NCBI GenBank assembly: GCA_040218145.1
Contig: JAVJQK010000101.1
Coordinates: 1-64,000 of the forward strand
Direction: 5' to 3'
Length of the DNA stretch: 64,000 nt
DNA from: Sandaracinaceae bacterium
GTDB lineage: Bacteria; Myxococcota_A; Polyangia; Polyangiales; Sandaracinaceae
Both the position numbers and the translations under genes were made by a program. Shown in pieces: positions 41,424 to 44,877 of this stretch. The notes beneath the pieces were generated by a model, which was not told the DNA's origin, searched no databases, and worked only from the letters and a program-made list of their open reading frames with translations. Position 1 is the stretch's first letter. Each line of letters starts with the position of its first letter.

Positions 41424-42484
41424 CAAGGCGCGAGGATCTCGAGCCGCCGCTCGACGTCGCCGCGGAGGGCGTCCGGCACGCCGAGCGAGAGCGCGCGCTC
41501 GAAGGCCCGCCGAGCGCGCGCCGGGCGGTGGAGCGCATCCATCTCGATGCGCCCGAGCGTGATGGCGGCGAGGGGCGCCCCCGGCGCGTCCGGGTGCTCG
41601 GCCAGGAGACGCTCGAGCGGACCGACGGCCTCCTCCGGGTGACCCGAGAGGCGCGCCACGTCGGCGAGGAGCAGGAGCTGACCGGCGTTCGCCTGGGAGG
41701 TCTCGCGCCGGATGCCCTCGGCGCCGATCGCGTCGAACGCCTCGTCGTGCGCGCCGGTCCGGGCCAGCGCGCGCCAGTCCTCGGCGGGCGCGTCCCGCAC
41801 GACGCGCGCGGGCGGCGCAGGACTGGGCGCAGGTCTGGGCGCCGCGCTCGGCTCCGCGCGGCGGGGCTCCGGTGCAGGCGTCTCGGTCACGGGCGCCTCC
41901 ACCGCGACCGGCGCCGGCCACCCGAGCCGCACCTCCTCGCCCGCGGTCAGGAGCCGCTCGCCCGCCTCGAGCCGCGGATCGCGCACGCGGACACGCCCCC
42001 GCTCCACCTCGACGGCCACGGCGTCCCCTTCGCGCGTGACGGTGAAGCGCGTGCCGACGACCTCCACCACGGTCGAGCCCGCGCGCACGACCCACGCACG
42101 CGGCCCACCCGGGGTGACCTCGAAGCGCACGCGGCCCTCTTCGACCTCGCTCTCGAAGCGCCCCTCCACGTTGGCGGTGGGGATCCAGCGCCCCTGCGCC
42201 GCGACCTCGATCCGCGAGCCGTCGTCCATGGTCACGCCGCGCGCGGCGTCGGCGGCCCGGAGGGCGACGGGAGCGCTCCCGTCCTCCAGCCGAAGGATGG
42301 CGGGCCCCCGTGTGCTCCAGACCCCCGCGCTCACCGCGAGGGCCAGCGCGCTCACCGCCGCCCCGACCTTCACCGCCACGCGACGACGCTCGGCGCGCCG
42401 CATCCTGCCGCGTGTCCCCTGCCAGAGGCGGTGCACCCGCTCCTCCGCCACGGGATCGTCGAGGAGCCGACCGACGCCCTTCAT
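41423..42484 (-). CDS. FecR-like anti-sigma protein with TPR C-terminus
   Basis: This 353-residue protein has an N-terminal cytoplasmic segment (about 1-38), one membrane helix (VGAAVSALALAVSAGVWS), then a FecR-type domain (about 75-205: VTMDDGSRIEVAAQGRWIP ... VEVVGTRFTV) and a Pro/Ala linker with TPR-like helices (about 245-353). FecR domains sit outside the membrane and control a cytoplasmic ECF sigma factor. The start overlaps the sigma gene's TGA as ATGA. I infer that it is the anti-sigma factor for the upstream sigma gene. Confidence 0.85.
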   Translation of the reverse strand: MKGVGRLLDDPVAEERVHRLWQGTRGRMRRAERRRVAVKVGAAVSALALAVSAGVWSTRGPAILRLEDGSAPVALRAADAARGVTMDDGSRIEVAAQGRWIPTANVEGRFESEVEEGRVRFEVTPGGPRAWVVRAGSTVVEVVGTRFTVTREGDAVAVEVERGRVRVRDPRLEAGERLLTAGEEVRLGWPAPVAVEAPVTETPAPEPRRAEPSAAPRPAPSPAPPARVVRDAPAEDWRALARTGAHDEAFDAIGAEGIRRETSQANAGQLLLLADVARLSGHPEEAVGPLERLLAEHPDAPGAPLAAITLGRIEMDALHRPARARRAFERALSLGVPDALRGDVERRLEILAP

Positions 42485-43086
42485 GCGCCCCTCCGCGCGT
42501 GCGCCGCGAGCGCGCTCTCGGCGGCCGCGACCCGCCGCTTCGCCGTGGCGAGCGAGCAGCCCGTCAGGGCCGCGACCTCGGGCAGGCTGTGCTCCTCCAC
42601 GTGCCGGAGCATCCACGCGATGCGTTGCTCGGTGGGGAGTCGGCCGAGCGCGCGGTCGACCCCGGCCAGCTCTGCGAGGTCCTCCGGGCTGGCCGACGCG
42701 CTCGCGAGCTGGCTGAGGGTCGCGTCGTCGATCCCGCGGTCCAGCCCGAAGCTTCGGAGCAGTCGGCGGCGCCGGTACATCTTGCGGCTCCGGTTCACCG
42801 CGATGCGGTGGAGCCACGCCCCGAACGCGCCGGGCTCGCGCAGCTTGGAGAGGTCGCGGAGCGCCTCCGCGAACGCGTCCTGCACCGCGTCGTCCGCGTC
42901 GTGGGTGCGCCCGACCAGCCGGGTGACCAGCCGCGTGACCCCGTCGACGTGCCGTCTGAAGAGCGCCTCGAGCGCCCACTCGTCGCCGCCCTGGGCGCGC
43001 AGGACCAGGCTCGCGTCGTCCGCGTCCACGAAGTCGCGGCGCGGACGGGCGGCGGTGCGCTCGCGGCTCGGGAGGGGCTTGGTCAT
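42481..43086 (-). CDS. ECF sigma factor
   Basis: This 201-residue protein has region 2 (EWALEALFRRHVDGVTRLVT, then DADDAVQDAFAEALRDL) and region 4 (LPTEQRIAWMLRHVEEHSLP, SLATAKRRVAAAESAL). It is of FecI-like or ECF general size. An in-frame GTG 18 nt upstream is an alternative start; neither has a good ribosome-binding site. It is first in an operon with FecR/TPR and exported genes, each joined by ATGA overlaps. The gene is divergent from the palindromic-repeat array and its promoter must lie between 43087 and about 43150. Confidence 0.88.
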   Translation of the reverse strand: MTKPLPSRERTAARPRRDFVDADDASLVLRAQGGDEWALEALFRRHVDGVTRLVTRLVGRTHDADDAVQDAFAEALRDLSKLREPGAFGAWLHRIAVNRSRKMYRRRRLLRSFGLDRGIDDATLSQLASASASPEDLAELAGVDRALGRLPTEQRIAWMLRHVEEHSLPEVAALTGCSLATAKRRVAAAESALAAHARRGA

Positions 43087-43143
43087 GACGGATCGGCCGG
43101 ACACTCAGAAAGCACGGTCCGCGGGCGGCGTCGACCGGGTCAA

Positions 43144-43840
43144 TTTTTTTTGGAGGGCCTGAACGCAGGCCCTCGCTGTATTTCTTGGAGGGCCTGAACG
43201 CAGGCCCTCCCCCCATTGGGCAGAGCGCCAATGGGGCCCCCCTCCCGACTACGGCGGGCGCGCGCTCCGCGCGCTTTCCCGCCGACCCCAGCGACGGGGC
43301 GCTGGGGCCCCTGCGGCTCGCGCTTTCGCTGCGCGAAAGCTGGCCGCCTTGTTTGCCTGGAGGGCCTGAACGCAGGCCCTCCCCCCATTGGGCAGAGCGC
43401 CAATGGGGCCCCCCTCCCCGACTACGCCGCCGCTCGCTGCGCTCGCGCCGCGTCCCCACCGACGGGGCGGTGGGGCCCCCGCGGCTCGCGCTTTCGCTAC
43501 GCGAAAGCTGGCCGCCTATTCGCTTCGCTGCGCTCGCTCCGGCTGCCCCCGCTCCGGCTGCCCCCGCTCCGGCTGCCCCCGCGGCTCGCGCTTTCGCTGC
43601 GCGAAAGCTGGCCGTCTGTTCACTGCGCTCGCCCCCGCTGCGCTGCGCTCACTCCAGTCGATCGCTCCGTTGCGCGCGCTCCCACGCCGACCACAGCGAC
43701 GGGGCGCTGGGGCCCCCGCGGCTCGCGCTTTCGCTGCGCGAAAAGCTGGCCGCCTGGTCGCTTCGCTGCGCTCGCTCCGCGTCCCACCGACGGGGCGCTG
43801 GGGCCCCTGCGACTCGCGCTTTCGCGCGCGAAAGTTGGTT
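43144..43840. repeat. Mosaic array of nested palindromic repeats
   Basis: Four repeat types recur in this stretch. A: stem GGAGGGCCTG/CAGGCCCTCC with 4-nt loop, at 43152-43174, 43187-43210 and 43359-43382. B: CCCATTGG/CCAATGGG, at 43211-43236 and 43383-43408. C: 8-bp stem with loop ACGGGG, at 43286-43307 and 43454-43475 (paired changes keep the stem), 43691-43712 and 43782-43803. D: GCTTTCG/CGAAAGC inside an outer GCGGC/GCCGC stem, at about 43313, 43481, 43581, 43718 and 43809. The A-B-C-D order occurs twice in full. A 15-bp tandem repeat (GGCTGCCCCCGCTCC) lies at 43541-43585. The ends have no gene. Confidence 0.9.
43541..43585. repeat. 15-bp tandem repeat inside the palindrome array
   Basis: GGCTGCCCCCGCTCC occurs at 43541 and 43556, with a third copy from 43571 that grades into the next D palindrome. 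It suggests slippage within the array. Confidence 0.8.
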
Positions 43841-43947: not shown

Positions 43948-44877
43948 ATGACACTTCGACTTCTTCTTTCGCTGGCTCTCCTCGCTCCGGGCTGCGGCTA
44001 TCGATCGTCGGTCTTGCTCGAGGGCGAGGACGCGGGCGGCGGCGACTCCGCGACCCCGGGCTCGCGAGACGCAGGCCGTCGGGACTCCGGCGACGCAGGC
44101 GACGCGGGGGTGCTCGACTCGGGCCGCGCTTCGGACCACACGCTCAGCGACACGATGGCCTGTCACCTCCAGCGGGCCGAGGCGCTGGACGCGGTGGCGC
44201 GCACGATCGCGTGTGAGCCGGAGTCGCGCTCGACGTTCTTGGGGCTGTTCGAGGCATGGGAGGCCGGACTGCTCGGGATGGACGGGACCGGGTCCGTCTA
44301 CTCCGGGCACGCGCTCACCCGCGGTTGCGCGGCGTGGCGGTGCGTCGCGAGAGCAAACGACTGCGGCGAGTACGCGGATTGCGTCGAGCCCGCGGAGCCG
44401 ACGACCTGCGCGCCGGGCGAGGAGATCTGCCGCGACGGCGCGATCGCGCGTTGCAACCAGGAGGGAACCGCGTTCGTGTCGATCTTCGCGTGCGGGGACG
44501 TCGGCATGACCTGCGGACCGAGCGAGATGTTCTCCGGTGTCATGGCGTGCTTGGGCCACGGCGGCTGCGAGATGCGCGGGCACATCTATGACTTCCGGTG
44601 CGAAGGCGATGACCTCGTGATCTGCGACGGAGCGGTGCGAACGACATGCGACACCTGGCGGCCGGGTGGGCGCTGCCAGTCGTTCGCGGTCGGAGGCGAG
44701 GTGCCGATCGACTTCTGCGGGCCGCCGGGCTTCGGGGGCGCAGGCGCCTACGACACCGACAGCGAGTGCGACGGTGACGTGGTCGTCTTCGCGGCCCTCG
44801 GCGTGGAGCCCGTCCGCTACGACTGCGCGGCGAACGGGTACGCCGGGTGCTCGCCCAGGGGCTGCGTCGCCCCGTGA
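43948..44877 (+). CDS. Cys-rich lipoprotein
   Basis: In this 309-residue protein the signal peptide ends in lipobox APGC (Cys16). An Asp/Gly/Ser-rich tether follows (about 30-65), then a domain with more than 15 cysteines in repeated CxxxxEIC.dgxxxxC-type units (CAPGEEICRDGAIARCNQEG, CEGDDLVICDGAVRTTC). This resembles small disulfide-rich surface modules. It lies beside the palindrome array and is transcribed away from it. No function can be named. Confidence 0.8.
   Translation: MTLRLLLSLALLAPGCGYRSSVLLEGEDAGGGDSATPGSRDAGRRDSGDAGDAGVLDSGRASDHTLSDTMACHLQRAEALDAVARTIACEPESRSTFLGLFEAWEAGLLGMDGTGSVYSGHALTRGCAAWRCVARANDCGEYADCVEPAEPTTCAPGEEICRDGAIARCNQEGTAFVSIFACGDVGMTCGPSEMFSGVMACLGHGGCEMRGHIYDFRCEGDDLVICDGAVRTTCDTWRPGGRCQSFAVGGEVPIDFCGPPGFGGAGAYDTDSECDGDVVVFAALGVEPVRYDCAANGYAGCSPRGCVAP

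Follow-up and report, generated by a model that had tools for sequence, protein, structure and literature searches.

What is the run of palindromes at positions 43144 to 43840 of the window, and does it belong to the genes on either side? The window is the whole 64,000-nucleotide stretch of Sandaracinaceae DNA that was analysed. The initial annotation described a mosaic of four hairpin types and offered four readings: a non-autonomous mobile element family, a structured RNA, a recombination or nucleoid site, or a control region for the neighbouring sigma factor and lipoprotein genes. Genomes, contigs and loci are designated here by G, C and L numbers; the genome of the window is G000.

Structure of the array

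The run is a single array of a dispersed repeat. The repeat unit is about 170 bp long and contains five hairpins in the order A-B-E-C-D (Table 1). Besides a solo A hairpin, the array contains two full and three partial units (D, C-D and C-D), with three copies of A, two of B, four of C, and four of D plus a decayed fifth D. The coordinates and copy numbers given previously for four hairpin types in the order A-B-C-D stand; hairpin E, between B and C, had been overlooked. The sequence also bears out the compensatory change described for C copies 1 and 2, in which the arms CCCCAGCG/CGCTGGGG become CCCCACCG/CGGTGGGG around an unchanged ACGGGG loop, and the mixed arm types and broken stem of C copy 4. 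A 175-nt stretch with the first unit is predicted to fold into five consecutive hairpins (z-score -4.8 with RNA parameters and -6.8 with DNA parameters). T-rich tracts are found 5' of most element copies in G000.

Table 1. Hairpins of the array and neighbouring features, in window coordinates
Feature	Positions	Strand
ECF sigma factor gene (Sigma70_r2, r4_2), neighbour, reads away from array	42481..43104	-
T-tract (TTTTTTTT), 5' edge of array	43144..43151	+
Hairpin A, solo copy, array head	43152..43175	+
Hairpin A, unit 1	43187..43210	+
Hairpin B, unit 1	43211..43236	+
Hairpin E, unit 1 (overlooked previously)	43253..43283	+
Hairpin C, copy 1 (CCCCAGCG/CGCTGGGG)	43286..43307	+
Hairpin D, copy 1	43313..43347	+
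Hairpin A, unit 2	43359..43382	+
Hairpin B, unit 2	43383..43408	+
Hairpin E, unit 2, arm type differs	43426..43451	+
Hairpin C, copy 2 (CCCCACCG/CGGTGGGG, compensatory)	43454..43475	+
Hairpin D, copy 2	43481..43515	+
Hairpin D, copy 3, partial unit	43581..43615	+
Hairpin C, copy 3, partial unit C-D	43691..43712	+
Hairpin D, copy 4	43718..43753	+
Hairpin C, copy 4, mixed-type arms, broken stem	43782..43803	+
Hairpin D, copy 5, decayed	43810..43838	+
Predicted lipoprotein gene, neighbour, without Pfam match	43948..44877	+

Dispersal within the genome

The array has 75 BLAST matches in its own assembly (11.06 Mb, 148 contigs). The 24-nt A hairpin occurs 81 times with up to three mismatches, and its reversed control not at all. 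The element is present at about 45 places in this 11-Mb genome, a figure obtained by searching and hence a minimum; many copies lie at contig ends, as is expected for repeats. Units follow one another as direct tandem repeats, the period being about 170 bp; forms cut down to A-B only or C-D only are common. The arms of a hairpin vary in step among copies: GAGGGCC/GGCCCTC, GAGGGTC/GACCCTC and GAGGGGC/GCCCCTC in hairpin A, and CATTGG/CCAATG and CATGGG/CCCATG in hairpin B.

Many copies have a downstream tail of simple tandem repeats. The repeats directly behind the arrays at L093, L126 and L205 (the last in G183) have a unit with CGGGGACGATCCTATTCAAGAATTCAAAC or a close variant. Long tandem arrays of the GGACTCGGACGCGG / GGTCGCGGAGGC type (L091, L116, L134) are found both behind elements and elsewhere. 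A search of 72,556 plasmids gave no match to the element; one viral contig matched, and the match looks like chance G+C-rich sequence.

Distribution across the class Polyangia

Stem sequences differ entirely between genomes, and the element is recognisable by its constant skeleton: GGAGGG-hairpin-CCCTCC, CCCC-hairpin-GGGG and CCCCCC. The search pattern GGAGGG N8-18 CCCTCCCCCC N12-28 GGGGCCCCCC is present in 11 of the 184 genomes searched in the order and in 13 of the 290 searched in the class; in neither set does the reversed control match any genome. The highest copy numbers are 71 (G034), 49 (G000), 23 (G004) and 15 (G006). Stems are specific to a genome and homogenised among its copies: those of G001 and G006, for example, have GGAGGGGTCTTGGAAGACCCCTCC, and those of G200, which belongs to another order, have GGAGGGTTTTTCGAAAAAACCCTCC. 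A scan of 84,980 species, each represented by a single genome, returned, among the matches listed, Myxococcota titles (Sandaracinaceae, Kofleriaceae, Polyangiaceae, Enhygromyxa and others) and one title from outside the phylum; this "uncultured proteobacterium" MAG contig is also a match of class member G291. As far as searched, the element family is confined to the class Polyangia. At L063 (G034 C93), another hairpin pair, GAGGGTCTGGCACCCAGACCCTC followed by CGTTCGGGATACGATCCCGAACG, is found just 3' of a stop codon; it is probably a sister family. The search of the units in this genome and its relatives that the initial annotation proposed has thus found copies dispersed both within the genome and over the class.

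Covariation of the stems

Among 29 distinct array heads, 91.2% of cells pair (79.7% when shuffled), both sides have changed in 66 cells (27.1 in shuffles), and the covariation score of 0.300 compares with 0.102 for shuffled and 0.044-0.077 for slid controls. None of 500 shuffles equals the real heads in the share of cells paired, in double changes or in score; the heads are related, so this count is not a probability, while the slid controls retain the relatedness. Pairing is strongly kept by compensatory change, since the skeleton recurs in 13 of 290 genomes with entirely different stems. The earlier suggestion that the fold itself is kept, made from C copies 1 and 2, is therefore supported by covariation well beyond that pair.

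RNA structure would tolerate G-U pairs; a DNA palindrome would not. Since the outer pairs are set by the pattern with which the heads were gathered, only the inner, free pairs are informative here. The 100 distinct heads have 11 G-T pairs beside 1649 Watson-Crick pairs; at variable positions only, the numbers are 11 and 649 (1.7% of 660, summed by hand). G-U pairs make up 6.8% in 34 tRNAs of the same loci, and the difference has a p value of about 3e-6, uncorrected for relatedness. Because G-T is so scarce at variable pairs, the count points to a palindrome which is selected or corrected as DNA rather than to a structured RNA gene. A search of Rfam yields nothing near threshold in the window region, and in eight other loci the threshold is reached by SRP RNA and tRNAs only. 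The structured RNA reading is accordingly disfavoured.

Placement behind genes

Array heads from seven genomes start within 20 nt 3' of a stop codon, in the orientation of the gene, in 56 of 100 cases; random positions at the same loci do so in 1.4%. The genes counted are long, codon-biased open frames in the same orientation as the element. Eighteen heads lie exactly 6 nt from the stop codon, and TGA, TAG and TAA all occur 5' of the element. The bias is strong in G001 (6/6), G002 (3/4), G004 (16/20), G006 (10/14) and G200 (4/6) and weaker in G000 (16/40); G034 has no such showing (1/10).

Other heads lie behind tRNA genes (L108, L110, L128, L262), behind an SRP RNA gene with an Rfam match (L102), or behind a hairpin and T-tract which resemble a complete intrinsic terminator (L098, L106, L117, L129). 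The copy in the window is an exception: it is not behind a stop codon, what lies upstream is the 5' side of the ECF sigma gene, which is divergent, and the edge of the array bears a T8 tract. Some upstream genes recur. The element follows rpoZ in two genera (G000 and G001), and orthologues carry it across genera in the case of a 79%-identical protein (G000 and G004) and an RRM-like protein (G004 and G006). One copy lies inside an operon, between atpD and atpC (L218). The names rpoZ, atpD and atpC are presumed, being read off translated ends without a database match. The unit adjoins dozens of unrelated genes, which leaves the proposed control region for the sigma factor and lipoprotein genes specifically without support.

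A simple CTGAG target motif combined with tolerance is insufficient to explain this placement because too few intergenic CTGAG sit at stop codons: 33% in a census from G000, compared with 32 of 40 heads from other genomes (G001, G004 and G006). We tentatively suggest that a mechanism other than RAYT might guide insertion to stop codons and the ends of RNA genes, possibly by way of DNA that is left single-stranded at the place where translation stops; the first bases of the element would then regenerate the stop codon.

Filled and empty sites

Fourteen copies in G006 were compared with G001, a sister species in the same genus with flanks about 95% identical. Most of these places are empty in G001, where the gene and its stop codon run straight into the next sequence. 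The unit can therefore be inserted, most sites of the complete genome G006 being empty in the sister species. Six sites (L228, L229, L230, L231, L232 and L235; lengths by hand) have net inserts of about 107-145 bp, and the pair L235/L439 has the appearance of a clean insertion. At L226, one and the same stop codon is followed by different subfamilies in G001 and G006, and G008 is without the element; gain and loss are polarised by the outgroup only where G008 is empty too. Filled and empty pairs, read by eye, have no constant target-site duplication, only short matches of 0-8 bp which differ by site.

In G183, a genome of the same species, the counterparts of about two dozen G000 sites were located, and the element is present at nearly all of them; since most sites are common to both, movement is slow. 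The G183 counterpart of L104 is empty, with TGA there and TAG in G000. The flanks are 99.6% identical between the two genomes, and several elements have switched arm type or copy number, as expected if copies recombine together. The pooled element identity of 82% is depressed by differences in copy number and by one misplaced anchor, and is unusable as a rate. At the G000/G183 pairs L105/L177, L096/L176 and L104/L182, the upstream coding flanks are about 98-100% identical and the last codons and stop beside the element differ, partly synonymously (ATT CTC ATT TAG and ATC TTG ATC TAG). Such junctions look like hotspots of mutation or repair.

Search for a mobiliser

Neither of the element-positive complete genomes G001 and G006 has Y1_Tnp, the domain of REP transposases, nor do G002, G042, G082 and G200; it is abundant in some element-free genomes. 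The one clear Y1 gene in G000 (L134) has no element alongside. A RAYT/IS200 mobiliser is rejected, Y1_Tnp being absent from several positive genomes, and the IS200-like transposases that had been suggested as partners have no link to the units. The 243 ORFs beside G000 copies contain no recurring partner gene family. A second palindromic repeat, GGGGACGCTA(G/C)GTTGAC, is found beside the one clear IS200-like Y1 gene of G000 (L134, C113:225027), in the downstream tail of L107 and at L182; it is a candidate true REP/REPIN or TIR family.

Hairpin B is interrupted at L133 (G000 C59:1-1641) by an IS110-family element (DEDD_Tnp_IS110, Transposase_20), whose left end joins B at two further contig ends (C102:1-139 and C133:17622-17760). 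With three joins to hairpin B, it is as if this IS110-family element targets the repeat. Insertion sequences which target REPs have been described (PMC1525189); by analogy, the IS110 insertions are a parallel to these rather than a mobiliser.

Nature of the element

The element is dispersed, is present or absent at orthologous sites, lies mostly in sense orientation a few bases behind stop codons, or behind RNA-gene ends and terminators, and has arms which change in step. It is probably a non-autonomous, REP-like mobile DNA element of Polyangia, whose unit is a run of adjacent palindromes which is copied and inserted in trans and homogenised by recombination. The mobile element family is thus the supported one of the four readings offered at the outset, on account of the dispersed copies, the empty orthologous sites and the spread over the class. 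The hairpins would act as DNA, as a single strand or a cruciform, during copying and insertion. These steps would be carried out by an enzyme acting in trans; a candidate was sought and not found among the G000 neighbours. Recombination between copies would then homogenise the elements and build tandem and mosaic arrays like that of the window. By position, the element could also act on mRNA in the manner of E. coli REPs. A study, as cited in PMC12306157, is described as reporting that REPs of E. coli stall ribosomes when they lie no more than 15 nt from a stop codon, and that about half of E. coli REPs are near enough to do so. More speculatively, a transcribed hairpin stack about 6 nt behind the stop might likewise affect the upstream mRNA, through ribosome stalling, 3'-end protection or cleavage.

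It is rather unlikely that the repeat is instead a functional RNA element of mRNA 3' ends (a stabiliser, attenuator or processing site), selected for its RNA fold and not primarily mobile. Such a role would suit the sense position right behind stop codons, tRNAs and SRP RNA, the strong folding with covariation, and the orthologous genes which carry the element in different genera (rpoZ, the 79%-identical protein and the RRM-like protein). It is harder to reconcile with sister-species orthologues of about 95% identity which lack the element, with the near absence of G-U pairs, with a separate homogenised stem sequence in each genome and with the lack of an Rfam match.

The T-tract lies 5' of hairpin A and not 3', which makes intrinsic termination by the element unlikely. 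Intrinsic terminator-like sites in the window region are no more frequent than chance predicts (1 found, 1.1 expected), one copy lies within an operon (atpD-atpC), and several follow apparently complete terminators already; for all the gene-end location and G+C-rich hairpins, there is very little chance that the repeat is the usual transcription terminator of the adjoining genes. Local duplication of low-complexity G+C-rich DNA, with no biological unit, would account for the simple tandem repeats in many downstream tails. It was to be recognised by units which occur nowhere else and by a lack of covariation beyond C1/C2, and it fails on both counts; given about 45 sites and other genera with compensatory stems, its probability is negligible.

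Comparison with known systems

Several known systems share features with the mobile DNA element proposed here. REPs (GTAG and CGTC superfamilies), REPINs and BIMEs are also short palindromes with many intergenic copies, a genome-specific consensus, proximity to stop codons and a role as insertion sequence target. The high-copy short intergenic palindrome of REPs is present, in the form of 81 A hairpins of 24 nt each. However, the element consists of five different palindromes in a fixed order (about 170 bp), all in direct orientation, with the GGAGGG/CCCC-GGGG skeleton. The GTAG/CGTC tag of REPs is lacking, as the bases 5' of GGAGGG vary by genome or locus (TTCTTGTT, GTCTTC, GCTTGCG, GGCTGGCTG), and no RAYT (Y1_Tnp) gene is flanked by the repeat, as it is in RAYT-mobilised REPs. 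BIMEs have palindromes in alternating orientation, whereas the units of the element's arrays are all direct.

BOX elements of pneumococcus have modular units A-B-C in order and in variable copy number. The element is alike in its ordered modules and variable copy number, but it is unrelated in sequence, is found in another phylum, has five palindromes and is stop-codon-proximal. IS200/IS605-type elements and MITEs are likewise non-autonomous, hairpin-bearing and insertable; the element differs in having no transposase relative beside its copies, and neither the terminal inverted repeats nor the constant target-site duplication of a MITE. Integron attC sites were considered since they too lie behind stop codons; the element's scattered locations, which follow housekeeping and RNA genes, speak against such an identity.

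REPs have long been puzzling, both for their crowding behind stop codons and for what moves them. Here an apparently unrelated family has REP-like placement without the REP transposase; it offers filled and empty sites, and few G-T pairs as a sign of a palindrome kept as DNA. As an independent case, it can be used to ask whether placement at stop codons is due to the mechanism of insertion or to selection. A search of the open-access literature found no named family of this kind in myxobacteria. The family is a new one: it fails the tests for membership of the tagged, RAYT-linked REPs, and it is REP-like in placement and dispersal.
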